Shown here piece after piece: positions 11,951 to 58,445 of a stretch of 64,000 nucleotides of DNA; position 1 is the stretch's first letter, and each line of letters opens with the position of its first letter. A program made the position numbers and the translations under genes. The stretch is from NCBI GenBank assembly GCA_904066235.2, contig CAJFCV020000004.1, positions 11,470,001-11,534,000 on the forward strand, given 5' to 3'. The notes below the pieces were generated by a model. That model saw nothing but the letters and a program-made list of their open reading frames with translations, was not told the DNA's origin and ran no database searches. The stretch is from Bursaphelenchus xylophilus (lineage: Eukaryota; Nematoda; Chromadorea; Rhabditida; Aphelenchoididae).

Positions 11951-12681
11951 CTAGGGAAGTGTACAAACGAACCCTCACCAAATAGCAAGTGTTATACACC
12001 ATTGGAAAGCCCTTGAAAAATGGTGCAAGACACCATTTTCATTTTTTGCAGAATGCCTCAGGGCAAAAAATTATAAACGGTTGATTTGTCCCTTAAGTAG
12101 TTACAATATCTGCTGTGGGGCATAATAAATGTCATTTCAAAACGCTAAATGATACGGAATGCTACTAGGTTTGCATAAGGATCATTATGAAGTTTAGCGC
12201 TTGCCAGTAAGACCATTTTACCTATGATATTTACTGGTTTTAAGTACCCATAATGTGAAAAAACACTTTTCACTTTTTTTAATGTTGAAAAACATGTAAG
12301 TTTGATGGTTTTAACCGTAACCGACCGTCTTCCAGTAAAATTAAAGCGTTTTTAAAAGTTTAACGCAAATATTTTCCTAACTGTAAGAACGCAAAAATGA
12401 TTTTTCGCAAGCTGGGAACTGAACCCGGCTTGCTTTGGCTTATCAGCCTGCTCAGCAACCACTACACTATTGAAGCAACCCTCTTCGAGGATTTTTTCCT
12501 ACCCAAGAGAAAGAAAGATTTTTGTTGCAAAATGGCCTAAAAATAATACAATTTACAGTATGTCGTCGCGGAAAGTCATTCTGCAAAAAATGAAAATGCT
12601 GTCTTCTACCATTTTTCAAGGGCTCTTCAGTGACGTATGTCACTTATCATTTGGTGAGGGTTCGTATGTACACTTCCCTAG
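11951..12681. mobile_element. Tc4-like inverted-repeat element with tRNA-like insert (731 bp)
   Basis: The element begins CTAGGGAAGTGTACAAACGA and ends with the inverted complement (TATGTACACTTCCCTAG). It is flanked on both sides by TAA (11948-11950 and 12682-12684), a TNA target duplication as known for C. elegans Tc4/Tc5. The terminal repeats extend inward about 110 bp (ACCCTCACCAAAT left, ATTTGGTGAGGGT right; AATGGTGCAAGAC left, GTCTTCTACCATT right). There is no transposase, so it is non-autonomous. A tRNA-like sequence lies inside on the minus strand. Confidence 0.8.
12406..12480 (-). pseudogene. tRNA-like sequence inside the Tc4-like element
   Basis: Read on the minus strand: TCAATAGTGTAGTGGTTGCT resembles a tRNA 5' half with A-box, and GCCGGGTTCAGTTCCCAGC resembles a T-arm with B-box (four of five stem pairs). 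The anticodon arm (GGCTGATAAGCC) does not make a normal 5 bp stem and 7-base loop, and the acceptor stem does not close. I read it as a tRNA-derived pseudogene or Pol III promoter module rather than a working tRNA. Confidence 0.5.
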
Positions 12682-13725
12682 TAAGACGAAGATAAGACGG
12701 ACTTGTTGGCGGGGATCTTATAGACTATTTACCGGGTAAAGGGGGGAGTAAAGGGTTGCTTTAAGAAGGGATAATTTAAAGGAAAAAACAACCTTTGTAT
12801 TGTCTGGGTGGCCGCGGGATTGACGTTACAATTCTCAAAGCTTCCTCAAAAATATATACGCAACAAACACCTACGACATCCTATAGATGTTCCGGGAGAA
12901 AAATTAATCAATCACTAATTAATACGAAGTGTTTCAAAATGCTAAGCTTGTCATCGCGTTCTTCAATGTAGCAAATAAGGCTATACAACAAATAAGGCAT
13001 GATCCTCGAAGAGCTGTTCAGCCCTTAATCAAAGCAAACTTAGAGAAAAATATGTAAAAATTGTGAAGATAAGAAGGTCAGAAATATTAGAAATGAGATC
13101 GCAAACTATTCGTTATAGAAGGATTTTGGTATGTAGAGGGCAATTTGGCCTAAATTTGGCCGCTAAGACCTCTAAAAACTGTTCGTTACAGACAGCTTTC
13201 GCTTAATGCAAGTTGGTTATGCACAGGTTATACTGTGAGTAAATTTCTTCGCTGGTTTAAAAAAAATAATAATTATGTTGTCTTAAGAGTTCTGCCGCCA
13301 CTCATGCAGAAAAAACAGGTTGAAAAGGTTTTTTGAAACAAAGCAAGTTCAAAAAATGACGCACGAATTTCCTAAAATATTCTTATTATTATACGAAGAG
13401 GTCCAAGGTTGGACGGACATTCGTTTTGTTGCACGTGGCGCAAAAGTTCGTTTTCGATGCAGACATGGCTAGAAGGCCGGGCTTTTGTGCACTTTAGGCC
13501 GTACCCTAAGCCCGACCTTGGAATACCAAAAATAAAATTGTTCAGATCACCTGCGATCTCCTTAGCTTGCGACTCGCAGATACAATCAATATTTTTAGCC
13601 CAAAAGTTAACTAAAATCTGATATCTTTCCTGCAAGGATGTCCGTGAAAAATTTTTATGAATTGTTGTGGGGCTTAGGTCGTGCAAAATTTTTCGAAAAT
13701 CTTGGAATAGTTCCCATGTTTAATT

Positions 13726-13995
13726 ATGCACGCTGCTGAAAAATTGAGAAGAAAAGTAGTCGAAAAGCAGACGAAAAGTTACGGTCTGCACTCTAATTCC
13801 GGCACAACAACGATCAGCAAAGTGTATTTCCATAGAATGGGAAACAGCATGCGCAATTTGATTCCTAAAAGTTACATGTCTCGGAAGAAAAAGCGGGCTA
13901 GACATGTGTTAAGACGGCGCGGAATGAATTCGTTTTGTCTTGTCCGAGTCTTTAATCTCAAAAAAGGAATGGCAATTTTAGAAAAAACTATTTAA
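13726..13995 (+). other. Basic 89-codon ORF, unknown
   Basis: It has a true ATG and ends before a TTTAAAAG stretch. It encodes a strongly basic protein (MSRKKKRARHVLRRRG in its second half). No partner exons or recognised domain. It lies in a TE-rich desert and shares the composition of the ORFs at 8.5-9.1 kb; it may be a relic of the same kind of element. Confidence 0.2.
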
Positions 13996-14239
13996 AAGTA
14001 GAATAAAAATTTTGGTCTATCAAAAAGGATGACAATTTATTTCAAAAAGTCGGAAAACCCCTCAAAACTTTTGGTGGATCGAATTACTTGCCAGGATTTC
14101 AACCCGTTGCCGCTCTTTTCTTGCCCAAGAAAAAAAAGAAAAAGTGCAAGAGATCTGATAATAAGCACAGCTGATCAGTGAAACTTGGTGGCGATTTGAA
14201 TAATATGTACTTAAGTCACAAAAATGAGGGCTAAAGTTA

Positions 14240-14790
14240 CGAAGGCTTCCAAGTTTTGGCCTGGCGGCTCTTGCGAGAAACCTCTTTCGGCAGCCGACAT
14301 TTCCCGAATAGGATTACGATTTTCTCCCGTAACTTACGTAGCATGATGAAATCTTTGCATTGGAAACTGTCTGGTACTGAAAACTACACGAGTGTATTGA
14401 ATTCATTCACCGCTTTCCATGCTACGGGAATTTCTCTTAAAAAAAAAACGGTTTCTGAACCTTTAAGAATGTCTGTTTACCCTATGGTAACTATTCAAGC
14501 CAATTATACACTTGGAAACTCAATTTGCACATCTAACTGCCAAGTTCGTCGTTGCAATTTCCTGTTGTAAGCAAATGTTGGCTGATTTCCAAACATCCCC
14601 CGCAGAACCTCCGTGGCTGCCCGCAAAGCGGTTTCCCGCAAGCGTGCTTCGCCAGAAATAGGTATGAAACTTGGGATAAAAAATTGAGGGTTTTCGCCTA
14701 ACAAGCGAGCTGTGGCCTAAGCACAGTATGTTGTTAAAATTTGCCGTCCTAATTTGCACCACGTTTCATAAGAAGCCACAAATTTCTCCG
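14240..14790 (+). repeat. Diverged repeat with conserved reading frame, copy 1
   Basis: This block is a distant direct copy of 56075-56550. In one frame both encode related text: RNLRSMMKSLHWKLSGTE here and RDLRNMIEILHWQLPGTD there, followed by a shared VSEP. Several differences are synonymous (TTA/CTA, CTG/CTC). After the frame ends, both share the non-coding text CATCTAACTGCCA and TTTCCTGTTGTAAG / TTCCCTGTTGTAAG. There is no in-frame ATG. It is a relic of a coding repeat of unknown type. Confidence 0.5.
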
Positions 14791-15358
14791 CCAGAGCCAC
14801 TAAATCTTTTTTGCACCGCGCTTCTTCAAAAATGGGTAGACTTTTTTTCGCGGCACTATAAGTGAATTTTGTCTCTTTCTGCATAGTGCGAAAGATACAA
14901 AATGCGGTAACCTTTAGACAAAAAGTCTATACGCCCCTTTGAAGAAGCGTAGTAGCCCGAACCTCCTCTCCCTCAAGACAAATCTTGTCCTTTTTGAAGT
15001 CACAAAAGTGTGTTTCACATAAACGATTTATGCAAATTGAATCAAAAATGTTTGCAAAACTACAAAATCCAAGCCGCTTATCCTCAACGTAATCGAATTG
15101 TTGTCCTCTCGAACGCTACGAAATATAAAAAAAGAGTTCAGGAAATTAAATTTGAACTTGGGCGTGAGAGAAACGTCTCAGACTTCTTCAAACATTCATA
15201 AGTTTGCGTTTTGAGCGCTCACTTCATATCCGATACTACTCCGATACTATTGGCTGCAAGGCAGCTGAGAGTGAGGGATTGGTGGCTGGAGGCAAATGGG
15301 GAGTTTGCGGTTTGTTGAAAACACACAGAAGCATTGATAAATCAGCTGACTGTGAAGT

Positions 15359-15402
15359 ATCAGTTTGTCGTGAAAATAATGTGGACATATGCGAAATTCC
15401 TA
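15359..15402. repeat. CAGTCTGTCGGG MITE, partial left end
   Basis: The text CAGTTTGTCGTGAAAATAATG followed by TGGAC matches the left end of the TGGAT subfamily. The right end is missing. Confidence 0.5.
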
Positions 15403-15783
15403 ACAATAAGTCGCATTTTGCAGAAAAGGTTTTTTGCGATTTTTAGCATAAAAATCTCGTATTTATAGGCAAAATCAACCCAACATTTTCAAGATGTAAC
15501 TATTCAGACATCAGAATGGTAAATTCTTGTCACTCAAGTAATAATCCATTCCACAAAATAAATATTTGAGAAGCGACTCGGTTTTTTTTGCGAAAAATGG
15601 ATGATTCTCGAATTGTGGAGCGTAATTTTTCTGCAAGCAAATTAATTCTACATACTGTAAAAAAAGGATATCAAAGGAAAACTCGTCTTTTCCCTTTTCG
15701 ACAGTTTATCGTCGGCAACGATCGTTGAAAATCTGGCTTTGCGGGTAAAACGGGAGCTATGGATTTTCAGAAAGTTATAATAT

Positions 15784-16031
15784 AGTGGAGGACCTGATTC
15801 AGTGGCAAAAAACGTACCATTTTGCATCCGGGAAGTATCAAAATTGTGGCAAAATGTTTCCCTCTCCAAGTGAAAAAACTCCGATTTCAAAAGCTCTTTT
15901 TGTAGGGAATGGGCGCGCCCTTCAAAACGAAGTTTTTTTAACTTGGAGAGGGAAGCATTTTGCCACATTTTTGATGCTTTCCGGATGCAAAATGGTACGT
16001 TTTTTGCCACTGGATCAGGTCCGTCACTGTA
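15784..16031. mobile_element. Palindromic MITE, GGCAAAAAACGTACC family, full copy
   Basis: The left end GTGGAGGACCTGATTCAGTG and right end CACTGGATCAGGTCCGTCAC are inverted, followed inward by GGCAAAAAACGTACCATTTT and its complement. Both ends abut TA. Nearly the whole 248 bp is a palindrome; the centre contains GGGCGCGCCC. Other copies are at 23930, 26905/29994 (split), 46019 and 52868. Confidence 0.8.
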
Positions 16032-16994
16032 TCAATCTGTCAGGAAAAAACGGCCAGTTGTCGCAACAAAATGCTCCGGCGAGTCTGATTTTTGGCAGTA
16101 TTGGAGAAAATCACAGCGTCGACTGCTGAGCACTCCTCTCATCGAAAAACTCTTTTCCCACCAAAAACCTTTCAATTGCAAACCAATTTTTCTTTCGAAA
16201 CCCTTTTCAATTTTCAACTCTTCTTTTTTTCAACTCTACGCTTCTCAATTCTCAGCGTTTATCTGAGGCCGCTCTAAATCACAGGAGAATCGGTAAAAAC
16301 AAACTTTAGGGCAATCAATTAGGCCGAAAAAAGTTTCAACGACATAATGAGGAAAAATCAAAAAAAAAAAAAAAAGAAGTTTCGGCAAACTTAAAAAGGA
16401 AGAGCCGAACTTTGGGCCCTCAAGGCCCACTTTGGAAGTTTCGGAAAGCCGTTTCTTCGAACCCCTCCTTCCACTTCATGTCCATCCCCATTCGGCGGGG
16501 ATTTTTTGATTATTAAACAGCCGTGCTCCCGAGAATACGTTGCCGCCTCGGGGCAAGTAATAAAGCGGCGATAAAAATAATATTTTGGCCCGTTCGCATA
16601 ATTTTTTGTGTCATAAAGGAGGGACGAGGTGTCAAGTGGAAAAGATCAATGAGTTTGGGCCAAGAGGGAGGTAAAATGTAGGCTAATGATGTGTCAGGAT
16701 TAGGAAGGGGCAGGTAGACTGACGTGAGCTGAGAGGAAAAATGGCGGGGAATAAAACCGGCAACCTAAAACAGGTTGTTTTTTACGCAATTGGGCAAAAA
16801 ATCGGCTGAAAAAATTTAAAAAATTATTAATAAATTATTATATATTTCTAAAATGGGGCTCACTCAAAGGCCCAATAATTGAAATTTATTGAAATTGTGT
16901 AGAAATTTTCGCTATGTACCACAAACCAATCGCCGAAAATTTTAGCTTTTTCTACGCGGTAGCAGCCGAGATATTCAACGGTCATTGCTGAATT

Positions 16995-17530
16995 CCGTTG
17001 CGGCAGAACTCTACCCCTTTTCTGAACTTTACCCCAATCTGAACTTTACCCCTTTTTCAACTCTACCCCAAAAAAGGCTGAACTCTACCCCTTTTTTGAT
17101 TTTCGCCAAAAAATCTGAACTCTACCCCTTTTTGAACACTACCCCATTTTGAAAATTGAAAATAATAAGGTGTGACATCTTATACGATGAATTTTTTTTT
17201 CAAATTGAGAAAAATCAGGTGTGACATCTTATACGATGAAAAAATATTTTCAATTTGAAAAAATTTTTCATCGTATAAGGTGTCACACCTTATTCTTTTC
17301 AATTTGAAAAAAAATTTTCATCGTATAAGGTGTCACACCTTATTATTTTCAATTTGAAAAAAATTTTCATCGTATAAGATGTCACACCTTATTGTTTTCA
17401 ATTTGAAAAAATTTTCATCGTAAGGTGTCACACCTCATTTTTTCAATTTTCAAAATGAGGGGTAGTGTTCAAAAAGGGGTAAAGTTCATTCAATGGGTAG
17501 AGTTGAAAAAGGGGTAAAGTTCTGAAGGGG
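16995..17530. repeat. Nested inverted array: CTCTACCCC motif arms around ~55 bp units
   Basis: The outer left arm (16995-17157) has at least six copies of a motif like GAACTCTACCCCTTTT. The outer right arm (17452-17530) has the complement (GGGGTAAAGTTC, GGGTAGAGTTG). Between them lie about six units of some 50-60 bp. Two read AGGTGTGACATCTTATACGA and four read in the opposite direction TCGTATAAGGTGTCACACCT, each joined by CAATTTGAAAA. The whole block is therefore a palindrome of tandem repeats. Confidence 0.8.
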
Positions 17531-17606
17531 TATTAATTTCGTATTCGAAAAGTACGGCCTGCGCTCCATGATTTAACAAATCCAACTTTCTGAAAAGAAT
17601 TACAAC

Positions 17607-17801
17607 ATGTCCTACGAAACAGCAAGAATTGTCACCTCAATCGCCACCGACCCTTCCTCGAAGACACTCTTAAAACAAACACTAATCAAAAATTCAACCG
17701 CTCTCCAGGTCGCTTTGGCGAACCCTGTTCAGAGAACCGGCCTAAGGGCCCACACGGGGGCTGAATATGGAAAACGGTGCCGGCTCCAACCGCAAACTTA
17801 A
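17607..17801 (+). other. Orphan ORF or first exon, unknown
   Basis: A true ATG (MSYETARIVTSIATDPSSKT) opens a 64-codon frame with balanced codon use, unlike the surrounding AT-rich text. No consensus donor is obvious and no family is recognised. It lies directly after the 17.0-17.5 kb array. It may be a first exon of a lost or unresolved gene. Confidence 0.25.
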
Positions 17802-18421
17802 TAAACGCGAACGGAATCGATGGCGTCAGCGGTGACACGCACATCAAGTGAGATGTGTTGAGGAATTTTTGTCGAACAAAAAGGGACTAGAACATTGGCT
17901 GAGAGCTCGCAAATTGCGTGAGGGATATTATACATATAAAGTGTATGTTTCTGAGGTGGAGTGGGGATAAAATTAACTCAAGGAAAGCTGTTGTGGAAAC
18001 GATTAACAACCTTATAAATGCGAAACGTGTTGGAGAAAATACCGAAAGAATCGACTTGCAGAGACTTCAATGGAAGTTGATCAAACATTTAGAAATCTTC
18101 GCTAGCCATCCATAAAACGAACTAGAATTTTTATAACTGATTTCTGGCCTCGCTATAATGTGAGTGCAAAATCCCAAGAAAATCTGAGCCTCGAACTTCA
18201 AGGACTTGTCAGAATACAACGCCATAGCATGATGCGAAAACAGAGAAACGAAATTTTCAACGCCAAAATGGCATTAATCTATGATCAGGCACTTTCTCCC
18301 CCGGATAATGAAATCTGTCTACAATAAACAATTTTAGAGAGCTGAAGAGTCAATTTTAGGGCGAGGAAAATTTCCGCACCTCACAACTTTCTGCGCAATT
18401 TCCGAAAAAGGAGGATTTTTT

Positions 18422-18535
18422 ATCAGTGTGTCGGGAAAATAATGTGCACAATGTCGCATTCAAAATCGCGAGAAAATGAATTGTGTCGCGGAAAAATCGA
18501 AGAAATTATGCTCATTATTTTCCCGACAGGCTGAT
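18422..18535. repeat. CAGTCTGTCGGG MITE, AGCAC subfamily
   Basis: Left TATCAGTGTGTCGGGAAAAT, right ATTATTTTCCCGACAGGCTG, with the usual interior (AAAATGAATTGTGTCGCGG). It is shortened in the middle. Confidence 0.75.
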
Positions 18536-18954
18536 GCAATCGATAAGAAAAGAAATAATAAATCATCAATATGGTTTGCAAAGAAACCACGTTTTTCCCC
18601 CCAACGTATCATCCAAAACATTCGAAATGCAATTACCCTAAAGGCGACCTCCCGAAGCTGGCCGAGGCACATGTTTAAAATTGGATAATTTGTTTTGGGA
18701 TTTCACAAAAACGTGAGCAAATACTGTGGGAAAAATGATCAAAAAAAAAAAGGAATTCAGACGAAGTGAGACGTTCGAAAACGCTACGGCTAAAAATACC
18801 CTGATAAGCGACAAATTGCAGACCAGTCAAAACCGCAACTCCGGCCATTTTTTTGCAAAAATTAACTTTTCTTTGAGGGTTTAGAGGGAAAAAAGTAACT
18901 CAATAACCAACAAAAATGTAATGACTGGGATCATCTTCCGAAACTTCGAGCGGT

Positions 18955-26480: not shown

Positions 26481-27164
26481 TAATATGTATATGTAAATAC
26501 AAATAATGAGGGATTCGCAATAAAGTTATAATGATCTCTGTAATAATTTCTGCGACTGTAGCTGGAACGAAAGCATTGCCGTTTTGTAGTCATCTCAGGC
26601 TCTTCGTAAAAGTAGAGGAAGATATTATAACACCTCTTCAAGTGGTTCCCGGAAAGTCGTGGGCATTTCGATTTTACACCTGCAAAAATTCATAGAATGC
26701 AATGCTCTTTGAATATTAATCTTTACTTACGTTGAAACTTTGTTTCTTTTGTTATTATAAATACATTATGGGTTAACTTCATTTCTGAATAATTGTTTGA
26801 AGTTGACGTTTCTGTATAAGCAAATGCTATAGTGAAAAAAGCTGTTCAAGTTATTGTTGACATTTGGTAGAAAAAAACATGTTGTTTTCTTGCGAATGTT
26901 GACATCCAATGGCAAAAAACGTTTCCTTTTGCATCCCGGAAGGGACCAAAATGACTCGAAACCTTCCCTTCGCTAACAAGGGAAGTCACTTTTTTCGCAG
27001 ACGGACTTCGGAACGGGACCTAGTAAATTTCAAACCTGAAGCGTCTGCGATCATACAACTGATTTCCAAAAGTGTTTACGGGGCTTCTCGGCCGAGAAAA
27101 TCGACCGCAAAGTTTAGCCGGAATGAGCGACTAGCCTCCTCAAAAGAAACAGCTTATTTCATCT

Positions 27165-27232
27165 GCAGTGGTGGCCGAGTGGTCAGCGCGCTCGCTTTTT
27201 GCGCCAGAAGAGGCGGGTTCGATCCTCTGCGC
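27165..27232 (+). pseudogene. tRNA-like sequence in left arm of Tc5-like element
   Basis: GTGGCCGAGTGGTCAGCGCG is a good A-box/D-arm of the tRNA-Ser/Leu style, and GGGTTCGATCC a good B-box. GCAGTGG can pair with CCTCTGC at six of seven positions. The anticodon arm (CTCGCTTTTTGCGCC) is irregular. Probably a tRNA-derived module. Confidence 0.5.
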
Positions 27233-27929
27233 AGTTTATTTTCTTTTTTGGTTCGTAAATATTGATTTAGTATGTAAACATAAAATGTATACACTTTTGT
27301 AATTTTTTACAGTAATTTAAAACGCGTTTTATTACAAATCGTAGTTTGGCCCGGACATTGTTAAAATCGGTGTCTCAGAATTCAACGAAACATGGTAGAT
27401 TTAATCACTGCTAGGCGTAGAACATTCGCTTTCTTTAATTTTTCCCAAAATTACCATATGACGGATTACTGTAACTTTCTTCCTCAAAAAAGATGTGCCC
27501 TAATCGTGAAAACGAAGCTGTATTTTAGTGCAAATTGAGTTTAGGTGTATGTTTTCGACCATGTAGAACATTTTTGTAATTATCACCAAAAACTAAAAAT
27601 TACATCTAAGCTATGTTACACTTGAGGCAACATACCATTTCGGCTGCAAAAAATGCAGTTTTGAGATGACGCAGATTTTGAAACCGGAATATTAAACTTC
27701 AAGCCTTGTCTAATAAACCATAAAAATTTCAGAAAAATCAAATGTATAGTTTTTGAGAAATTGGACATTGAATGACTCATGTGCAATATCACCTTGACCC
27801 GAAAAAAACTGGCATTCTAGGGGTTTTGACCTGACGCAGATTTTGAAAGTTTCCACTACATTTTTATCACATTTTAGGAGGATTTGGGAAGTTTCAGAGG
27901 AAAAAAATGTATAGTTTTTGAGAAATCGG

Positions 27930-29110
27930 CCAAAATACCTTGTTTTAGGTCATCAGATGCCCGAAAAAAACTGGCATTCTTGGGGTTTTGACCTGACGCA
28001 GATTTTGAAAGTTTCCAATACATTCTTAGCACATTCTAGGAGGATATGGAAAGTTTCAGAGGAAAAAAATGTATATTTTTTGAGAAATCGGCCAAAATAC
28101 CTTGTTTTAGGTTATCAGATGCCCGAAAAAAACTGGCATTCTTGGGGTTTTGACCTGACGCAGATTTTGAAAGTTTCCACTACATTTTTATCACATTTTA
28201 GGAGGATTTGGAAAGTTTCAGAGGAAAAAAATGTATAGTTTTTGAGAAATCGGCCAAAATACCTTGTTTTAGGTCATCAGATGCCCGAAAAAAACTGGCA
28301 TTCTTAGGTTTTTGGCTAGGCGCAGATTTTGAAAGTTTACAATACATTTTTATGACATTTCAGGAGGATATAGAAAGTTTCAGAGGAAAAAATGAATAGT
28401 TTTTGAGAAATCGACCAAAATACCTTGTTTTAGGTCATCAGAACACAGAATCGTAGCCATCGGCTTACATTTGACAAAAGTTTTGCAGAGAGCTCGAATT
28501 TATTAGTGACAATTTGGAGAAAAAAACAGTAACACGCATATATCTCGGAAAAAAAGAGATGCCGAAGAAAATTGGTCGAATTTTCCAGCAACTTGACCTA
28601 TAACAGGTTCACCTTGGTCGATATCTCAAAAACTATTCACTGTTTTCCTCTGAAACTTTCTATATCCTCCTGGAATGTCATAAAAATGTATCGGAAACTT
28701 TGAAAATCTGCGCCTAGCCAAAAACCTAAGAATGCCAGATTTTTTCGGGCATCTGATGACCTAAAACAAGGTATTTTGGCCGATTTCTCAAAAACTATAC
28801 ATTTTTTTCCTCTGAAACTTTCCAAACCCTCCTAAAATGTGATAAAAATGTAGTGGAAACTTTCAAAATCTGCGTCAGGTCAAAACCCCAAGAATGCCAG
28901 TTTTTTCGGGCATCTGATGACCTAAAACAAGGTATTTTGGCCGATTTCTCAAAAACTATACATTTTTTTCCTCTGAAACTTTCCATATCCTCCTAGAATG
29001 TGCTAAGAATGTATTGGAAACTTTCAAAATCTGCGTCAGGTCAAAACCCCAAGAATGCCAGTTTTTTCGGGTCAAGGTGATATTGCACATGAGTCATTCA
29101 ATGTCCAATT
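27930..29110. repeat. 157 bp tandem repeats in opposite orientation about the element centre
   Basis: Units starting near 27930, 28085, 28243 and 28400 share GAAATCGGCCAAAATACCTT, GACGCAGATTTTGAAAGTTT and GTTTCAGAGGAAAAAA. The complement appears in units at about 28640, 28795, 28955 and 29110 on the other arm. Units differ mainly by GATATGG/GATTTGG and CTAGG/CACTTT type changes. Confidence 0.85.
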
Positions 29111-29730
29111 TCTCAAAAACTATACATTTAATTTTTCTGAAATTTTTATGGTTTATTAGACAAGGCTTGAAGTTTAATATTCCGGTTTCAAAATCTGCGT
29201 CACCTCAAAACTGCATTTTTTACACCCGAAATGGTATGTTGCCTCAAGTGTAACATAGCTTAGATGTAATTTTTAGTTTTTGGTGATAATTACAAAAATG
29301 TTCTACATGGTCGAAAACATACACCTAAACTCGATTTGCACTAAAACTGAGCTTCGTTTTCTCGATCAGGGCACATCTTTTTTGGGGAAGAAAGTTACAG
29401 TAATCCGTCATACGGTAATTTTGCGCAAAAACAAAGAAAGCGAATGTTCTATGTCTAGTGTTGATTAGATTGACCAAGTTTCGTTAAATTCTGAGACACC
29501 GATTTTAACAATGTCCGCCCCCTGTTAGGCTAAGCCCCAAAGTGTGGCAAAACGCGTTTTAAACATAAATCCAAAGCTGAATGTTCATGAATATTGTAAA
29601 GTCAAAACAGGGCTGGGTTAATGAAGATATAGTTCCTAAATTTGTGTTTTATTAAAAATTTCTAATAATTAGCATATGTGATGTTAACGGCATCTCTCTA
29701 TTTGATTCAATGGCCAAAAGAAATGCATCC

Positions 29731-29803
29731 GCAGGCGACCGAAGTCGAACTCACGTCTTCTGGCGCAAAAAGCGAGCGCGCTGACCACTCGGCCACCACT
29801 GCA
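29731..29803 (-). pseudogene. tRNA-like sequence in right arm of Tc5-like element
   Basis: This is the inverted partner of the 27165 copy. The minus strand reads GTGGCCGAGTGGTCAGCGCG, then GACGTGAGTTCGACTTCGG. The 3' half differs strongly from the left copy (GACGTGAGTTCGACTTC against GAGGCGGGTTCGATCC), while the 5' half is identical, so the arms have diverged or been partly replaced. Confidence 0.5.
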
Positions 29804-31106
29804 GATGAAGTAAGCCGTTTCTTTTGAGGAGGCTATTCGCTCATTTCGGCTAAACTTTGCGGTCGATTTTCTCGGCCGAGAAGCCCCGTAAACACTTTTG
29901 GAAACCAGTTTTATGATCGCAGACGCTTCACGTTTGAAACCTACTAGGTGCCGTTCCGAAGTCCGTCTGCAAAAAAAGTGACTTCCCTTGTAAGCTAAAT
30001 AAAAAACTCCGCTTTGAAAAGCGCGCCCTTTCCTTCAAGGCGGGCTCTTTAAAGCGGGGTTTTTTAGTTTAGATAAGGGAAGCGTTTGGAGACATTTTGG
30101 TCCCTTCCGGGATGCAATATGAAGCGTTTTTTGCCATTGGATCCGGTCCCTCACTGTATTTGTCCAAAAAAGCATTTTTCCTTATGGCCGCTCTCCACGT
30201 TTTGTATTCTCACGGCCGAGAAGATCGTTGACTTTTTTGGGTCTGCCATTGGAAAGATTGAGCTCAAATTGTCATTTATGTATCTGTGAACTATATCCAA
30301 TGCATTCGGAGAATTTAAACAAAATCTGACACTGGGGTTCTGGGTAAATTCAAATTTTTTTCGACCATGATGCTCGACCACGTTTTTTTGGCAAAATATT
30401 TTTTCTTCAGCATTTTTTTTCTGTACAAAGTACACAATAAGCAAAAAGTACGAGAGATGGGAATAGTTATTTCCATTGTACAGTTCAGGACATACAGGAC
30501 ACAGTCTTATATTGTCCTGAGCTCTGCAGTTGCAGGATATAAGATTAAATGTGGCCCAAACGCGTGGCCGAGCATCATGGCCGAAAAAGTCTGAATTTAT
30601 CCGAAACCGCTCTTAAATTCATAATTTCAAAAAAGATTACTATCTTTACAGGATCGGTGTAATGCTAAACTTTGGTTGAATAAAAAAAGCATTGAGCTGT
30701 GTTTATTTCCACAAGGAGCCGTTTTTTTCACCTGTTGAGCGTTCTAGACGTAGTGCTTAGTTAATGCATTATAATTATAAATATAAACATGAATTGGCTC
30801 CTTCCTCGTTCTCATTGCGAACAGAGCTTGCAACGGAACTTTCTTCCAAAAATTTTTCGGTCATTAATTCGGTCAGCTAATTCTATTGACCCGCCAAAGT
30901 GCAATTTGTTCATTGAGGTTTAAATACCCACCCCACGGACCCTTGACGCGTTTTGTTGCAAAACCTAATAAGTGAAAATGAATTTGCGGCTCAAGTACGC
31001 GCCTACAATATAATGGGCTACAAACCGGCGAAGTTATTCCAAAGTCTATGAAATTCTCAGCTTCCCGCCGGACCAATGAATTGGCCCGTACCGCTCTCCA
31101 GTCGCG

Positions 31107-38870: not shown

Positions 38871-39506
38871 GGATAGCGATTTAACGAACCTTCTAGCCAT
38901 GGGCAGATTTATTGATGTCGCCAATGCACGACGGATGTGCAAAATTGAAAGAAAATCTGAGCGCCGGAAAGGTGTTTGTTGTCTTTATGTCTTCACCGGG
39001 GATGAAGAAAGGAAAAATTATAGGGCACATCAATTCAGCGTAGTTGAACTTATTACCTGGTCAAAATTTAATCGCTGGGGCGTTTCGTCACAGAAGGGAT
39101 TTTGCAAACGACCTTTGGATGTTTTTTCTTGGCTGGCCAGAGCAAGGACTTGCTTTGTGCTCGCAAATCAGCGTGCTAAATGTTTTTAGCTTTTTAGGAT
39201 CTATTTTTGTCCTCCAAAAGTTCTTCCGAAAGGGATTTTGATACCTAAAATCGTAGTCTTCCTGTAGTAACGCCGGCGTCCCAATTTTGGCCGTTTTTCT
39301 TGCCAATTTTCTTACAAGGAAAGTACTTTTATGGGGGCTCCTACTTTTTGACGGGACATATCTCAAAAAATCAGAAAAAATGTGCTGATCAAGGATATAT
39401 AAATCCTAGCTGCCCATTTTGGGTTTTTTGGCATGTTTTGGCCGTCGAAAGTTTTGAAATTCGCAAGAGGAAAGAATAAAAGACGATTTGAAAGGTAGGG
39501 AAACCA

Positions 39507-39580
39507 ATGAGTGAGTGGCGCAGTTGGTTGCGCAGAAGACTGGGGTTTGTGCGGAGGGGGGTTCGAGTTCCCTTTTGTGA
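39507..39580 (+). pseudogene. tRNA-like sequence in left TIR
   Basis: GAGTGGCGCAGTTGGTTGCG gives a good A-box/D-arm and GGGGGGTTCGAGTTCCC a good B-box with T-stem pairing. The anticodon region reads AAGACTGGGGTTTGT. It differs in type from the tRNA-like sequence in the 26977-29990 element. Confidence 0.5.
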
Positions 39581-39746
39581 TTTTTTTTTTATTTTTTGTA
39601 TTTTTGCTGTAAAATACAAGTAAGGATGTTCAAAGATAATTTAAGAGGCTTTTCGAAATAAAAAATGTTTTTTCTGGCTGTTCAGTTCATCTCCTACGGA
39701 GATTTAAGCCGAAGCAGTAAACTGACAATATCGGTCAACCATCTTC

Positions 39747-40567
39747 TCACCTTTCAAGGGTTCGGTTAGAGTGCATCTCCTTGTATATTGGGGTCTGGTC
39801 GCAATTTAGCACACAATCGAATGGAAATTTTTGCATTTCGGCCTTGACTTCATTCACAAACTTTTTTTTTCCTCGGCCGTGAGGGCATTTTTGCGTTTTT
39901 TGGAGGCGACCCATCGGGTCACTTGTCTTGAACATATTTTTGTTTGTTTTTTTAAGTTTTGAATAAAATTATGACTAGCTTTAAAATTTTTTAATCCCAG
40001 ATCATTAGCTATTTGAAGTGCTTCACTGCGGATCCAGGAATCATGTAGGATCTTTTTTGAGTTAATTTGGTCCAAAACACGTTTTTTGAGGGAAAATCCG
40101 AGGGTTCGAAAATTGGACCTCAGTCTACCTTTTAACCCCCCAGTTTGTTCAAATTCTCGAAGTTTGTCCAACTCTTTCTTTTTTTTTATATAGCGAAAAT
40201 GATGGTTTACCAATTTTAACGGGCGACAACGTTGTGTCTTTGAACCTCGGTAAAAGTTTAAAGCTTTACTTGCCTGTTCCAATGATGCGATGCCTCCGTC
40301 ACTGAGTTGAACTTGATCTTCTGGTGGCAAGCAATCAGGTTCGTCTTCTTCCAAGTCTTCATAATCCGGATCACTGTCATAGTTGTCAGTTTCAACTTCG
40401 GCCTCTTCATTCTCCTCTTCTAACGTCATCCCATTCTTACATTGTTCAATACAATACGCAAACCGATCCGCCATCTTCTGTTCTTCTCTGGTAGCGGCTT
40501 TAGCATCCCCAACACCATATTTGTCCAACAATATGGACACAACATTTTGCGGCGAAAATTCGGACAT
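39747..40567 (-). pseudogene. Pogo/Tigger-type transposase, frameshifted and truncated
   Basis: From the ATG at 40567 (MSEFSPQNVVSILLDKYGVG) the first frame runs 237 codons to 39854. It has an acidic middle region (EDLEEDEPDCLPPEDQ) and then a CENP-B/Tc5-type helix-turn-helix region (SEALQIANDLGLKNFKASHN, then CSRQVTRWVASKKRKN). A run of nine A at about 39866-39874 shifts the frame. In the next frame VNEVKAEMQKFPFDCVLNCD leads to QTPIYKEMHSNRTLE, which looks like the first acidic motif of a DDE domain. The rest of the DDE domain is absent. A GTGAGA that could be a donor follows at about 39752. The size and missing catalytic half say the protein is inactive as it stands. Confidence 0.75.
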
Positions 40568-40756
40568 TTTATGACTGCACGTCACAGGGAAATGAGTGTT
40601 TCTTGACACCCTTCCGTGATTTTTTGGCTTCGTTTATGTTTTTAAGTCGCGTTTTTGACTTCTAATTAATAGCCAACGGGAAATGAAAAGCCTCAATCAA
40701 TGTTTTCTAACTTTATTTTGTATTTTTCAGCAAAAATACAAAAAATAAAAAAAAAT

Positions 40757-40830
40757 CACAAAAGGGAACTCGAACCCCCCTCCGCACAAACCCCAGCCTT
40801 CTGCGCAACCAACTGCGCCACTCACTCATT
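40757..40830 (-). pseudogene. tRNA-like sequence in right TIR
   Basis: This is the inverted partner of the 39507 copy, nearly identical (AAGGCTGGGGTTTGT here). The minus strand reads GAGTGGCGCAGTTGGTTGCG, then GGGGGGTTCGAGTTCCC. Confidence 0.5.
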
Positions 40831-41304
40831 GGTTTCCCTGCCTTTCAAATCGTCTTTTATTCTTTCCTCTTGCGAATTTCAAAACTTTCGACGGCCAAAA
40901 CATGCCAAAAAACCCAAAATGGGCAGCTAGGATTTATATATCCTTGATCAGCACATTTTTTCTGATTTTTTGAGGTATGTCCCGTCAAAAAGTAGGAGCC
41001 CCCATAAAAGTACTTTCCTTGTTAGAAAAAGACACCCGCTCATACCAACAAAAGCCGTAACACTCAAACATTATTATGAACTTCACGGGCTCCACGCGAT
41101 TCCGGAGTCCGTTGGGTTCCTCTAAGGTATCAAAGGGGCAACCCCTTTTGATCTCTCTCCCAATGCCGACTCCCAATGTCTACGTTGATATATTTATTGA
41201 TGGCCGTTTCGTACAATACAATGCTAGAAAAGAATAAGCCTACGTCCTTGCCCAGTAGGCTGCGCGTTGCCGTTGCGGGACCAAATATGGGTCTGGGCGC
41301 GGTT

Positions 41305-46000: not shown

Positions 46001-46018
46001 TCAAGGCCTATGCCTGCA

Positions 46019-50450: not shown

Positions 50451-50464
50451 ACACAATTTTTTAA

Positions 50465-50575: not shown

Positions 50576-50863
50576 AAACTAGAAGTAAGCGGGATTATCA
50601 CGTGAAAAGCGAAGAGAGTTATTGTGACTTGCGTGGTGAGCATAAAGGCTAAACGTTCGCAATGTTCGGGGCAAACAATGTCAAAGGGAATGCGGAGTCG
50701 ATTATGATTTTTCGACGATGACGGGTGTTGTTTGACGCTTTGTTTGTTGCATTGTGAGGGCGATGCTTCAGAGGGATTGGAGGGGGGTTTTTTATGGTTT
50801 ATGTAAAAGAAAAGAGGCCAAAATGCGGCCTCAGACTTTGATAAAATTTTGGCTAACAGGGGT

Positions 50864-52450: not shown

Positions 52451-52560
52451 TATCCTGGATTTTTCGCGCCTTGGATCATCGTTTTGGCCAGTCGCGGCTG
52501 GACATAGGGATGAGAAATTATGCTGCTACAAGCCCACATTATTTTCGCGGCAGGCAGATA
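52451..52560. repeat. CAGTCTGTCGGG MITE, TGGAT subfamily, degraded
   Basis: TGGATTTTTCGCGCCTTGGA and CCACATTATTTTCGCGGCAG then GCAGATA. The left TIR is lost. Confidence 0.55.
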
Positions 52561-52793
52561 TTACTCAATTTTCTAACAATAAGGCATATGTTTCTAGCTT
52601 ACCCTTTAGCGAAGCGAGAGAAATTAATAAATAAAGAGTTTTCAAAAATGTGACTTTTTTGCAAATTTTGATGCAACAAGTTTCATGTCTATTTCTACCG
52701 TAGTACGGAACCAACATTATCCCTTCTCTTCTCGATGTGATACCGCTGAGAACGAAAATCAATCTGGCCTGTAATTTGTCACACCCCTCTATA

Positions 52794-52868
52794 AGTCTGT
52801 CGGGAAAATAATAAGCGGTCAAATTGCTTTTCACTTCAGCATTGTGCCCATTATTTTTCTAACTGACT
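52794..52868. repeat. CAGTCTGTCGGG MITE, internally deleted
   Basis: AAGTCTGTCGGGAAAATAAT at left, GCCCATTATTTTTCTAACTG at right, only about 75 bp long. Confidence 0.65.
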
Positions 52869-53117
52869 GTATGGGGACTTGATTTAGTGGCAAAAAACGT
52901 ACCATTTTGCATCTGGGAAGTATCAAAAATGTGGCAAAATGCATCCCTCTTCAAGTAAAAAATTTCGTTTTGAAGGGCGCTCACAAAAAAAAAGCGAGCG
53001 CGCTTTTGAAATCGGAGTTTTTTCACTTGAAGAGGGAAGCATTTTTCCACATTTTTGATTCTTCCCGGATGCAAAATGGTACGTTTTTTGCCACTGGGAT
53101 AGGTCCCCCACTGTAGC
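52868..53117. mobile_element. GGCAAAAAACGTACC MITE, full copy
   Basis: GTATGGGGACTTGATTTAGT then GGCAAAAAACGTACC at left; GGTACGTTTTTTGCCACTGG then GGTCCCCCACTGTAG at right. The centre AAAAAGCGAGCGCGC differs from the 15784 copy. It directly abuts the deleted MITE at 52794-52868. Confidence 0.8.
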
Positions 53118-54080
53118 CTCCTTTCTTAGCTCCGAACAAACAAAGTTTAACGTTTTTTTCCTAACTGATCTTTTTTTGAATTTTCAACAGCATCGCGCTA
53201 CAATCAAGCGTTGTTTTGTTCCCATACAAATGTGACTTTTTTGCTCATCACCAATCGATACCCCTCGTACATTATCACGTTTTGACTGTTTCTAAACTTT
53301 TGATGTTTGTCTGTGTTATTGAATGCCCCACCGTGCAAATACCATGAGTATTGTTGCGTGGAAAGGTCGAAACACGCTCCGTTTTGATCTCAAACTTTGC
53401 TGATTTCTGGATTCCCAACATCAAAGCTGCAGTCACATGTAGCGCAGATCTCGTTCACGACGCGAACACCTGACAAAAGCGTTGCGAAAAAATTCCTCGC
53501 GCTCGCCGAATTAGTTGAGAAAACTTTGTTTTCGACTGTTTTCTTTAGATGTTCTCTGTACCCCACTTGCTAAATGTTGCTATTTATAATACAGAGAGCA
53601 TTTGTAGGTTTAATAATAACAAACGTGGCGGCCAAAAATATTTGGAATGAGCGGCTCAACAAACTTTATTTGTCTTGCGGGCGGATTATGATTGGGGTAT
53701 AAACTGGAGAATGTTTTTATTATAAACGCAGGAGCAGTTGCAACTGCAGATTTGCCCTCATGCCTGCAGGCCTGAGGGCAAATAAATACGGCAGCGGCGG
53801 AGGTAGGCTTAGCTCCCAGCCGTTTTTTTTTTGCTCGACGGAGGTGTCTTTGCCGTAAGCCTTTCAGTGTTTCAAGGATGCCTTGCAAGGGAAGTCCCCC
53901 AAGTGCGACGCTTACAATTAGATTGTCTTTACATTTTGTTCCCAGTCCGGGAATAGCCAAACGCACGTCAAACTGAGACAATCTAATAAAACGGTCCTGT
54001 GAATGGACAATTCGCCAAACAAAGACGCGAAAACCCCTTTTGTCGGGTAAGAAATGGGGAATTTTTGGACGAGAGAGAAG

Positions 54081-54807
54081 GCATGGCTCCGGGCCGGGCT
54101 TTCCAAAATTTTCCGGCCCGGGCCGGGCCGACTAATTTCTCGGCCCGACCCCGGGCTTCGATTTTCAGGCCCGGCCCGGCCCGGGCCGGCCCGGTTTTTT
54201 ATGAAATCTGAGTTTTGCCCGGAAAAAAAGGAAAAAATCAGCTTTTTCGATAAAATTTTTCATTTTTTCGAACACAATGCTGATAGCGAACGTAAAATGA
54301 CCTTATTTACCACTCGCCCAAATGAAAAAATAATTTTCAAGTCAATTTGAAAAAAAAAATCAGAAATTTTTAAGTGCGACCTCATAGTTAATACGCTGGC
54401 AAAAAAAGCAAAAGGAAAAATTTTCAAAAATACGCAATACGCTTGTAGGTTTTTTCAAATTCAATAAAAGATCTGTGATAAAACATTTTTGCTAAAATTT
54501 GGGTGACTATACACAAAATTTTATGATTTTTTGTAACCAGATGGCAAGACAATTTATGGCGACTTAGTAATTTATAAAAATAGTCAAGCGGCAATTGAAC
54601 TATGTATATGTTTTGCTAAATTATCTTTTACATTTTGCGAATTTTCCCTTTATTTCCTGCTTTGTTTCTTTCCAGCGTAGTACAAAAAATTTCCGGGCCG
54701 AACCGGGCCGGGCTTTCCAAATTTTACAAGCCCGGGCCCGGGCCGGGCTTGGAGATTTAGGCCCGGCCCGCAGGCCCGGGCCGGGCTGGCCCGGTTTGCA
54801 GCCATGC
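54081..54807. mobile_element. GC-rich-ended palindromic element, copy 1
   Basis: Left GCATGGCTCCGGGCCGGGCT; right CCCGGTTTGCAGCCATGC, inverted. The outer ~110 bp of each end are strings of GGCCCGGGCC-type text, while the interior is AT-rich (TTTTTTCGAACACAATGCTG, AGCGAACGTAAAATGACC). The extreme base-composition contrast is intrinsic to the element, not a CpG island. Confidence 0.75.
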
Positions 54808-55274
54808 TTACGAGGGAGTATGTTTTTGCGCGTCCTTTCTCTGTCTTCTCTGTGCAAACAAGACAAAGTGTCAAAAACCGATGGCGAAGAGTCTATTCCA
54901 GTCACCGGACTCCTCAGTTTGAGGTGCAAGGCACCTCTCTTCTTTGATTATAAAGTACCAAACTCCACCAATTTTTGTACCGGCTTACGACAGAAAAATA
55001 AAAATCTAGGAATTCGTCTTCGTATCATACTATAATATAAATTGAGAGCTTCACTTATGACTTTAGCAGAACACATAGGCGCTTGTGTTTTCAAAAAATG
55101 TCGTAAAACTCGGACATTATACCCTGCTCTCTTGGTTTAGTATATGCCAATCGTCTGGCGTCACTCGATTATAATCGTGTGAAATATGCAAAACTCACAG
55201 GATTAAATTTCAGCAAGACCAAAGTTTCGATGGCCTGTGAGTAATTCTTTTTTTAGACGCTGCGGCTGCAGTCT

Positions 55275-55675
55275 GTGAGGGAAGTACTCCTTTTGAAGAA
55301 CCTTGTCAGAAATTTAGAGTAGTACTTTCTAAGACAAAGTTTTTTTGGTCGAAAGTTTGAAAAAATGTCGCGCTTTTTGCGAACTTTGGCAAGAACAATT
55401 TTGTGTCTATTTCTACCGCAGAGTATAAATTTTCCATAAAAAATCATTTGTTTCCTCACGAAGCGTCCAAAGATGTGCCCAAAAAGTGTTTTTCTCTCTG
55501 ACCGCTCTCCACGTTTTGCGTACTCTCCCGGCCCCAAAGATCGTTGGATATCGCGGCTGCCTCTGCAAAACGCCAGCTGAAATTTTCAAGTATTGTTTTA
55601 TGGTTTGTGCCTTTAGTATGTGCAAAATTTAAGAAAAGTCAGCATCGCCCTTGGGGTATCTCTCTTGAAGCTCTA
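55275..55675. repeat. CGCTCAGATTTT-family element, inverted orientation
   Basis: GAGGGAAGTACTCCTTTTG at left; GTCAGCATCGCCCTTGGGGT then ATCTCTCTTG at right. The interior has TTTTTCTCTCTGACCGCTCT and GTGTCTATTTCTACCGC. Confidence 0.5.
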
Positions 55676-56074
55676 AACTTTGTGCAAAGCTTACTATACT
55701 AGAAAAAACGTCAAGGCCGTTCTAGTTTTGCATGCCCAGACAAAAACCCTCTAACCTTCAAACTAGTAAGGCTACATTGCGCAATCCTTTTCCGTATACT
55801 TTAATTAGCCAAGTTTTGTTTGCCCAACTGTTGGACATCCAATATATTTTCAATGGAAATCATAAATCGTCTTTTCTATTATAATATAATTTTTCTCGCA
55901 TTTTTTTTCGTTGGGTGAAATATGATGTGGACAAATTGACAAGGGAGTGGGATATATCAGAGTTACAAGTCTGTTTTCTGTGAGTCAAATGTAAAAGTTT
56001 CGTATTATCTTTAATTCCTGCTATTTATTATGTTTTTAATACATGCATCCAGTGTTGTTCAAATAGCTGCTTCA

Positions 56075-56550
56075 CAATGCGTCGCGACACTTGCGGGCAA
56101 CCACTTTGCAGGCAGCCGAAATTTTCCGATTAGAATTACAATTTTACACCCGTGATCTACGTAATATGATAGAAATTTTGCATTGGCAACTCCCTGGTAC
56201 TGATAAATCGAATCTATTGAATCCATCCACAGCTTTCAAAGTTATAGGAGCTTGTTTTCAAAAAAAAGAAATGGTTTCTGAACCTTTCAAAGTGCATGGT
56301 TTATCTTACGGAAGCTATTTAAGCCGCTTATGAACAAGAGAACTTAATTTGCAACATCTAACTGCCAGATCCATTATTCGAATTCCCTGTTGTAAGTAAA
56401 TCTTGGCTGGTTTCCAAACATGCCCGCATAAACCCGGCGCTACTTCTACCTGCCCCCTTTTTGAAGCACTTCACTGACTGTATATGCCCTACAGTCAAGT
56501 TGCACTTCTTCCGCACTTGAACTGAAATATCCGGCAATGCCATCTGAACG
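56075..56550 (+). repeat. Diverged repeat with conserved reading frame, copy 2
   Basis: Partner of 14240-14790. The frame RDLRNMIEILHWQLPGTDKS then LNPSTAFKVIGACFQKKEMV aligns with the first copy and ends in a stop. There is no in-frame ATG and no flanking gene structure. Confidence 0.5.
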
Positions 56551-57102
56551 TCCCAATGACTCAAAAAAATTGATTACAAAACAACCTGCTGATCCGTTGT
56601 TTTTGGATAAACATCCTTTCAAATCTCAAAAAAGGTCATATTTTTTTTTAATTGCACGGGAAAAAGGTTACGCAACGGCTTAAATAAATATTTTCCCAGG
56701 GTTCTCGAATCAGTTACGCAACTGGTCATGAGTAATGTTTTTATTTATCGTGTGGTAACCTTTATGTGTAGATTGTTTGAAACTTGTGTGTCGTACAAGT
56801 CAGAAGGTGGGGTCGTGCCTATAAATTGATTTATTTGTTTTCCTTTACAGGGTTAGCGGAATTGCAAGGGTTGTATCAGGCTGTTTTGAGGAGCTGTTTT
56901 GATTTGTCGAATGTAGTCCGGGAGTTTTGATGGTTGTAATGGCTTACCAGGAAAGCATTCCTAGTGCAACGCCCAGGTCTTCTTTAAATATCGCGAGACC
57001 GTAGATCATGTCTTTCAATTTTAGCTCGCGCTATACGGGGAAATCTGCGTACTCTGCTAGCGCTCTATTGCGACACAGAGAGTACTGATGCTTTTTGGCC
57101 AT

Positions 57103-57573
57103 ATCAGTCTGTCGGGAAAATAGTGGTGGCCCGGCCCGGGCCCGGGCTTGGAAAATTTGGAAAGCCCGGCCTTCGGCCCGGAAAATTTCTATACTAGGTT
57201 GGAAAGAAAGAAAGCGCGAAATGAAAGGAAAATTATGGCAAATTTTCGCAAAATGTAAAGAAAAATTTAACAAAACCTAGGTACATAAGGTCACTTTACG
57301 TTCGCTATCAGCAGTGTGTTCGAAAAAATGAAAAATTCTATCGAAAAAGCTTATTTTTTCCTTTTTTCCGGGCAAAATTCAGATTCCAAAAAACCGGGCC
57401 GGCCCGGGCCTAAAGATCGAAGCCCGGAGTCGGGCCGAGAAATTTTTCAAAACCCGGCCCGGAGCCATGCCTGAGCAGGCACGCCGAATTTCCAGCTGCG
57501 GCTAGCCGTCGCAAAGCGATGATGGGCGATTCAAAGGCACGGCAATGTTCATTATTCTCCCGATGGACTTGTA
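57103..57573. mobile_element. CAGTCTGTCGGG MITE interrupted by a GC-rich element
   Basis: TATCAGTCTGTCGGGAAAAT at 57102-57121 is the left TIR. The matching interior (TTTCCAGCTGCGGCTAGCCG) and right TIR (TTCATTATTCTCCCGATGGA) resume at about 57472, on the far side of the GC-rich element at 57127-57471. Confidence 0.7.
57127..57471. mobile_element. GC-rich-ended palindromic element, copy 2 (nested)
   Basis: It is oriented opposite to copy 1. It opens GGCCCGGCCCGGGCCCGGGC and closes GGCCCGGAGCCATGCC. The shared interior is inverted (GGTCACTTTACGTTCGCTAT then CAGCAGTGTGTTCGAAAAAA). Shorter than copy 1 (about 345 against 727 bp). Confidence 0.75.
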
Positions 57574-57874
57574 GATACTCGCAATTCTTCGGGCTTTATG
57601 GCCCGGCGCGTATAAAGTTGAAAAAATGAAACCGCCCCGGTTTTGGAAGCAAATCGCTAAAATCGCTTTCCAAACTTTTTTCGAAGACATATATATTTCG
57701 AACAGAAAAGAATAGGCCGGCCTTGTGAAAAAATCACAAATTTACTGTCGTTTTCAAATCAAAGCTTGGACCTTTTCCGTCATCTTCTTTGGAGTGTTTG
57801 CGAAGAAAAAATAGCGTGTTTACAAAAAGGTTCGCATAGGTCAACTTCACTTCCTACGCCACCGTTTTTCATTA

Positions 57875-58445
57875 CAAGGAAAGTACTTCTATGGGGTGTG
57901 GAATTACCGGTCGAGATATATATCAAAAAATTCGCAAAAATTTTCTGATTCAGAATATATAAAAATTAGCTGCCTAATTTTGGTCTATTAACGAGTTTTA
58001 TCAATAAATGTTTTTCTCGAGGAAAAAAATCTGCGGCAACAAAAGCGCGCTCGGTCTCTTCCTTCGGAAGAGAGCGGTGTGGCCGAGTGGTTAGAGCGCT
58101 AGATTGGGAATCCGAAGGGGACGGGTTCGGTTCTTTTTGCCACACTAGAACCCATTTTTTACATTGGAACTACTTTTAAGGTGTAGTTGTAATCCAATTT
58201 GATATTTTAAGGCTTGTCAAGGCCTCAAAATTTATTTTAGCACAAAACAAAATTTTTTTATCGGTAAAAACACGGTCAAAAAGACACTTGCATTGTGTCG
58301 CGAGAAAACTTCTGAGGACAAAAACATGTCATCAGACCAAAATTAGGCAGCTAATTTTTATATATTCTGAATCAGAAAATTTTTGCGAATTTTTTGATAT
58401 ATATCTTGACCGGTAATTCCACAACCCATAGAAGTACTTTCCTTG
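57875..58445. mobile_element. Small Tc5-like element with tRNA-like centre (571 bp)
   Basis: CAAGGAAAGTACTTCTATGG at left and AGAAGTACTTTCCTTG at right are flanked by TTA on both sides (57872-57874 and 58446-58448). The terminal repeats, about 115 bp, include ATTACCGGTCGAGATATATA and ATATATAAAAATTAGCTGCC and their complements. These ends are the same family as the 39315-41021 element. There is no transposase; the middle is a tRNA-like sequence plus about 150 bp. Confidence 0.88.
58077..58145 (+). pseudogene. tRNA-like sequence inside small Tc5-like element
   Basis: The first seven bases GTGTGGC pair perfectly with the last seven GCCACAC. GGCCGAGTGGTTAGAGCGCT is A-box/D-arm-like, GATTGGGAATC resembles an anticodon arm, and ACGGGTTCGGTTCT the B-box. 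The D-arm register and T-stem are imperfect (CGGG opposite CTTT), so I call it tRNA-like rather than a functional tRNA gene. A homology search or covariance model would settle it. Confidence 0.5.

Follow-up and report, generated by a model that had tools for sequence, protein, structure and literature searches.

Why should DNA transposons carry pieces of tRNA genes in their ends? The question is raised by a 64-kb stretch of the Bursaphelenchus xylophilus genome (C4:11470001-11534000, hereafter the window), in which four Tc4/Tc5-like elements each hold a tRNA-like sequence. The window and the genome (78.25 Mb in 8 contigs) were searched for such elements, their transposases and their boxes. In tRNA genes, the host factor TFIIIC docks at the A and B boxes. 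The explanation that we favour, with our confidence evenly balanced, is that Tc5-type transposons keep the TFIIIC-docking boxes of a captured tRNA gene, and that docking would help the element as DNA.

Box pairs in Tc5-type elements

Four intervals had been marked in an earlier, sequence-only reading of the window. Their borders proved right to the base, with matching TAA or TTA flanks in each, and the inverted arms of all four were recovered by an independent inverted-repeat search. The ends begin with CAAGG or CTAGG, as do those of Tc4/Tc5 elements.

11951..12681, no strand assigned: F3 element with CTAGGGAAGTGTAC (CTAGG) ends and a TAA/TAA duplication; no coding part seen
26977..29990, no strand assigned: F2a element of 3.0 kb with CAAGGGAAGTCAC (CAAGG) ends and a TAA/TAA duplication; interior long and palindromic
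39315..41021, no strand assigned: F1c element with CAAGGAAAGTACTT (CAAGG) ends and a TTA/TTA duplication; part of a transposase gene inside
57875..58445, no strand assigned: short F1a element with CAAGGAAAGTACTT (CAAGG) ends and a TTA/TTA duplication

The tRNA A and B boxes described for each element are present, and all face inward. Beyond that description, the F2a (26977-29990) and F1c (39315-41021) elements bear a tRNA-like sequence in both arms, while F3 and F1a have one copy each.

12414..12469, minus strand: F3 tRNA-like sequence, A box to B box, inward from the right end; strict scan
27172..27226, plus strand: F2a tRNA-like sequence of the left arm, inward; strict scan
29741..29795, minus strand: F2a tRNA-like sequence of the right arm, inward; A box intact, B box with two mismatches, not in the strict scan
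39516..39570, plus strand: F1c tRNA-like sequence of the left arm, inward; strict scan
40766..40820, minus strand: F1c tRNA-like sequence of the right arm, inward; strict scan
58080..58134, plus strand: single F1a tRNA-like sequence, inward from the left end; strict scan

The strict rule combined an A box (T[AG]G[CT]..A[AG].{1,2}GG) and a B box (GGTTC[AG][AG]) at a spacing of 28-70; it was used instead of a loose mismatch scan, which gave 9 matches against ~12 expected by chance. It matched five times in the window, every time within the four elements, compared with a mean of 0.16 and a maximum of 2 per window in 100 windows of second-order Markov sequence. Near 30 real tRNA genes (92 kb), the same rule gave 9 further matches, and 9/9 were tRNA genes by ARAGORN.

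The coding sequence inside F1c identifies the type of element.

39854..40609, minus strand: N-terminal part of a Tc5-type transposase, a 251-amino-acid open frame in F1c; HTH_Tnp_Tc5 match at E 1.6e-4, just under the cut-off

In L064, an F1c relative close to where contig C7 begins, a frame of 441 amino acids matches the Tc5 HTH and Tc5 C-terminal domains and, weakly, DDE_1. Because this frame is without ~97 amino acids that the window fragment has, the copy may not be intact. The F4 transposase (L068) is split over two frames, so that this copy too may not be intact, and ~30% identical, with the same C-terminal domain, Transp_Tc5_C, which is above the cut-off in both L064 and L068. A genome search for Transp_Tc5_C, blind to the boxes and picking loci by transposase domain alone, found 12 places in four families (F1c 2, F4 1, F5 8, F7 1), 11 of them above the cut-off. 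An inward tRNA-like sequence was found in at least one arm at all 12 loci, and in both arms at 9 of them within the fetched stretch. With the first base of the end as 1, A boxes begin at 199-202 in all cases where the end itself was included in the fetched sequence. Matching TNA-duplicated ends were also seen at F4, F5, F7 and F9 loci. F1, F4, F5 and F7 are Tc5-type transposons, with Tc5 transposase domains and TNA duplication, and the Tc4/Tc5-like filing first given to the window elements is borne out; F2, F3 and F9 are filed as Tc5-type by ends, duplication and layout only, with no coding copy identified and longer F3 pairs unread. A PF13359 profile search gave no match, and PF03184 gave one, in F4. 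As to relatives in other organisms, no DNA match was obtained in the viral or genome contig collections searched, and four related proteins only were found, one of C. remanei at 34%.

Two observations attach to these transposases. The 15-kb contig C7 begins with a TAAGCC telomere-like array, and the L064 element (L064:1-2910), which has most of a transposase, lies within 3 kb of it. Of the fragment at 39854-40609, 20% is matched at 90% identity by P0001, which a database names a myosin motor domain protein of B. xylophilus; we read this as a chimaeric gene or gene model.

Exact ends are numerous in the genome (F1 1181, F3 154, F2 129), with reversed-pattern controls at 0 each. Boxes were found in 16/20 F1 copies (the first 100 listed places included 34 pairs with two exact ends, of which 20 were fetched), in 9/10 F2 copies (the first 10 pairs listed on C1) and in 9/10 F3 copies (pairs of ~0.72 kb; longer F3 pairs were passed over). 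The sequence-only reading, which would have been refuted if most genome copies lacked the boxes, came through this count of sampled copies. A matching TNA duplication flanks 16/20 of the F1 sample and 20/20 of the sampled F2 and F3 copies. Among F1 copies with the duplication, boxes are present in 15/16; in the remaining one (L046), the tRNA-like sequence is there but its B box is mutated. Of four F1 ends that lack an exact partner, two have boxes (L001, L008). F2 comprises two subfamilies with different tRNA-like sequences, whose A boxes lie at 196-197 and 199-200, and F3 has one tRNA-like sequence per element, at 209-213.

Approached from the boxes, the same association was seen. The 11-mer A box TGGCCGAGTGG occurs 773 times in the genome, compared with 7 for its reversed control. 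Of 81 listed places (C1 up to 5.39 Mb), 39 have the same orientation as an exact F1 or F2 end and lie 195-228 bp inward of it, another 4 belong to F1 elements of which only the far end is exact, and 38 are other. Six of these 38 were fetched: two are arms of F9, a further TNA family whose A boxes start at 202 and 196, and ARAGORN identifies the other four as tRNA-Ser genes. One more of the 38, at 399300, lies within L008, farther inside an exact F1 end.

The elements resemble tRNA-derived short interspersed elements (SINEs) in their decayed tRNA, kept boxes and many copies. They differ in that the boxes lie within the inverted repeats of TNA-duplicating and, as described below, TTAA-duplicating elements, often in both arms. 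That such SINEs inserted into the transposons appears highly improbable to us, given the fixed box distance, the occurrence in both arms and the spread over several families including transposase-bearing ones; the sequences read showed neither a SINE body nor a separate duplication flanking the boxes, although no dedicated search was made. In its favour, the available part of a survey lists SINE/tRNA-Deu-I for B. xylophilus and for no other surveyed nematode, and this entry could be these very boxes (PMC11118728). The SINE/tRNA-Deu-I label may misfile the elements described here.

State of the tRNA-like sequences

If a tRNA gene was captured, little of its fold remains. With the Rfam tRNA covariance model (gathering score 29), the window gave no tRNA match at E <= 5; scores of 20.2-21.7 bits were obtained in 5/20 F1 loci, and six other loci gave no match. 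ARAGORN called no tRNA in the window and none in 12/13 element loci, while calling 4/4 tRNA-Ser genes. Acceptor stems form 2-5 of 7 pairs (random 2.7, real tRNA 6.9), and T stems are intermediate. F1a copies retain part of the cloverleaf, and one of them, at C4:2112950, scores 32.6 bits with Rfam and is called tRNA-Ala(GGC) by ARAGORN. Genome covariance scoring took in 63 of 6207 tRNA candidates and gave 62 matches, seven of them below 33 bits; of the six that were fetched, exact F1 ends enclose five, and the sixth is in an F1a copy split by an insertion of F6, a family treated below. The refuting check set in the sequence-only reading is thus split: most sampled copies hold the boxes, but the covariance model gave no match in the window and no score up to the gathering level in most loci, with one F1a copy above it.

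The tRNA-like sequences are mostly box-like and not intact tRNAs, and the cloverleaf is mostly broken. The F1a copy and the partial cloverleaf of its family are what speaks for a functional tRNA cargo of benefit to host or element. This idea is nonetheless very doubtful, with ARAGORN silent in the 12 other element loci and the window, acceptor stems near random and TTTT directly after or before the B box. Intact tRNA cargo was rejected for most copies by ARAGORN, covariance scores and acceptor stems, the one F1a copy being the exception.

A transcript could matter even where the tRNA does not. Eleven kinds of tRNA-like sequence were seen (F1a, F1b, F1c, F2a, F2b, F3, F4, F5, F6, F7 and F9), and most have complete A and B boxes at tRNA-like spacing. 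TTTT follows within 30 bases of the B core in F1a, F1b, F1c, F2a, F3 and F7, as would suit a short inward RNA polymerase III (Pol III) transcript from each arm, selected as a small RNA, decoy or promoter-coupled signal. However, TTTT also lies between the boxes in 5/11 kinds (F2a, F2b, F4, F5 and F9), and a full transcript is therefore unlikely in those kinds. Terminator enrichment was not found, since TTTT within 35 bases after the B box occurs in 7/13 cases against a background of 0.46. We consider it unlikely that a Pol III transcript is the selected product, and the transcription through the arms proposed in the sequence-only reading gains no support from these counts.

That reading had also suggested a role in targeting, and yeast and Dictyostelium retroelements are said to target tRNA genes. 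In the 92 kb around 30 real tRNA genes, a small sample, one element end was found compared with 1.8 expected. That the boxes steer insertion towards tRNA genes seems to us scarcely credible.

Conservation and descent of the boxes

Between-family profiles were compared by ungapped identity over six families (F1a, F2, F3, F4, F5 and F7); an earlier measure with free end gaps was dropped, as shuffled sequence scored equally. Identity is 0.89 in the first six bases, 0.83 in the A box and 0.88 in the B core, compared with 0.58 in the four bases past the B core and 0.28-0.35 elsewhere. The rest of the arms has diverged and the boxes have been retained between families, in keeping with the initial proposal that boxes were kept during divergence; where at least three different tRNA-like kinds had been counted, several were indeed found. 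Three results are free of bias from the motif itself, namely that 12/12 transposase loci have the boxes, that the null rate is low and that the distance varies little. The chance of six A boxes falling within 17 bp is 5e-6 under a uniform model that assumes independent families, which these are not.

This dependence is evident in a second motif. F2a, F5 and F9 share GCCGAGAAAATCG at 114-115, so one ancestral terminal inverted repeat (TIR) likely gave rise to much of the Tc5-type group. At 114-115 bp, F2a, F5 and F9 arms carry the motif GCCGAGAAAATCGRC and, after it, CAAAGTTT or a close variant (15/15; shuffled maximum 12), for example at L077:528-2112, L139:27-817 and L132:5-780, with a weaker form in F7 and F4. 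It is perhaps a candidate transposase-binding site or part of an upstream element.

Shared descent raises the alternative that an ancestral tRNA gene became trapped in the TIR and has since been a functionless passenger. Other old motifs are likewise common to Tc5-type TIRs, box-less copies exist, and no significant constraint on the boxes was detected within families. Against this, nothing in the outer 200 bp beyond the first bases is as similar between families as the boxes, which stand at 12/12 transposase loci, and the same layout recurs in a second, TTAA-duplicating kind of element. We regard the passenger explanation as rather unlikely.

Several observations nevertheless weigh against selection for docking, in addition to the F1a copy that passes as a tRNA. 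The A- and B-box identities are inflated by the motif used to place the boxes, and shared TIR descent, seen in the common motif of F2a, F5 and F9, accounts for part of the constant distance. In the within-family test, no group had its boxes among the 5% of same-shape windows with the least divergence. The boxes diverge more than the rest in F1a (0.068 vs 0.045) and are slightly worse than the rest in F3 (0.055 vs 0.052); they diverge less than the rest in F1b, F6 overall, F6-1, F6-2, F2a and F2b, and equally in F6-3. Zero box changes were seen in F1b (5 copies), F6-1 (7) and F6-2 (8), which are too few copies to inform. Boxes are absent from the moved copies L055, L057, L058 and L128, and L131 has an A box only. 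Family F8 has similar ends but no boxes. A control with DDE_3 (Tc1-like) transposases, 5 of 8 places fetched, showed a strict box pair in the arms at 0/5, but it is small and weak, as arm-like inverted repeats above 30 nucleotides (nt) are found at only two of the five places; L087 had a loose two-mismatch match, and L086 an unrelated F1a copy and an F6 copy nearby. Copies look neutral once inserted, so any selection must act on source elements.

F8 itself is a short family with Tc5-like ends (CAAGGGAAGYAC..CAAGTGCGACG), read at L077:2386-2831, L097:3366-3770 and L094:149-1149 with no tRNA-like sequence by scan. The L094 copy of F8 is interrupted by an F1a element.

The TTAA-duplicating family is F6. 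Its duplication is seen at an empty and a filled site, one F1a copy being uninterrupted where another carries the insertion, and TTAA precedes the end in 20/20 F6 ends. F6 ends have 37 exact occurrences, and an inward tRNA-like sequence lies at 427-432 in 20/20 fetched ends. Two F6 elements read across have tRNA-like sequences in both arms, one with a shorter arm (~278). The F6 tRNA-like sequence groups by similarity with a real tRNA-Glu gene, and F6 seems to have gained its Glu-like box pair separately from the Tc5-type group. Divergence or separate acquisition had been offered to explain the different tRNA-like kinds; both seem to apply, the former in the Tc5-type group and the latter in F6.

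As to the identity of F6, a TA element was rejected on the TTAA duplication. A search for piggyBac (PF13843) gave no match, but its controls were silent too. Kolobok elements duplicate TTAA, and F6 resembles both Kolobok and piggyBac in this duplication with a clean empty site; it differs in that its superfamily transposase was not identified (PF13843 silent, Kolobok transposase not searched for). Kolobok is a candidate from the duplication and from the Kolobok-T2 noted for B. xylophilus in the available part of the survey (PMC11118728).

Other repeats were met in passing. At 15780-16032 of the window, an inverted repeat with 99-nt arms surrounds CTCTCCAAGTGAAAAAA-like sequence; similar hairpins occur in L001 and L098, and it is therefore probably a separate short repeat family. 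At 17147-17410, a palindromic repeat of units like AAGGTGTGACACCTTATACGATGAAAA gave spurious matches to several microRNA families, all below cut-off. Inside an F1b copy, another inverted-repeat element (L042:243-1763; arms 570 nt, 98%) has two histone 3' untranslated region stem-loop matches near its centre (RF00032, 28.0 and 23.1 bits; cut-off 34) and frames whose ends look, by eye, like a histone H2B tail, and is read as a captured piece of a histone gene in inverted copies.

Proposed TFIIIC docking at transposon arms

How might boxes outlast the tRNA? That they have done so follows from the near-random acceptor stems and the TTTT between boxes in five kinds. We propose that the inverted repeats took in a tRNA gene early, before the transposases had reached ~30% identity, and that the tRNA then mostly decayed while the A and B boxes stayed ~200 bp inside the end, facing inward. 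Source elements would retain the boxes since TFIIIC docking at the arms benefits the element as DNA. The most likely benefit would be an open, insulated unit, acting as a barrier to flanking heterochromatin or as a road-block to read-through, which, if unblocked, would make double-stranded RNA from the arms; pairing of the two ends could be a further benefit. Two inward A and B units around a transposase gene look like an insulated cassette. Among the roles suggested in the sequence-only reading, a block to heterochromatin may be the best candidate. In F6, a Glu-like box pair would have been acquired separately in the arms. TFIIIC binding, selection on source elements and insulation are what we infer; the elements, the boxes with their positions and orientations, and the mostly broken cloverleaves are read directly in the sequence.

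The elements share Tc5 transposase domains, TNA duplications and long inverted repeats with C. elegans Tc5/Tc4. What may set the elements here apart is that their inverted repeats carry tRNA A and B boxes at a fixed position. No description of tRNA boxes in Tc4/Tc5 repeats was met in the literature searched, which is not proof that none exists.

A precedent for docking alone comes from C. elegans, where, in the available part of one study, many TFIIIC sites without Pol III lie in tRNA-pseudogene-like repeats (PMC6950938). Of the extra-TFIIIC sites, 44.6% overlap repeats, and 95.1% of those are CeRep3, a suspected tRNA pseudogene with both boxes (PMC6950938). Our elements are alike in being repeat-borne in a nematode, with A and B boxes and a suspected tRNA-pseudogene origin. 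CeRep3, however, is not described as a transposon with inverted ends in that part of the study (PMC6950938), whereas the boxes here lie in Tc5-type TIRs.

With F6 included, we suggest, more tentatively, that at least two kinds of nematode DNA transposon separately recruited TFIIIC through captured boxes in their TIRs, for insulation or end pairing, and are possibly a source of repeat-borne extra-TFIIIC sites. TFIIIC is known mainly from tRNA genes, SINEs and insulators. If the proposal is true, cut-and-paste transposons exploit it as well, and some nematode repeats labelled as tRNA SINEs may in fact be DNA transposons. It would also explain how a nematode genome acquires hundreds of TFIIIC-type sites away from tRNA genes, and would offer a testable origin for the C. 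elegans tRNA-pseudogene repeat that bears TFIIIC sites, as far as the available account of that repeat goes.

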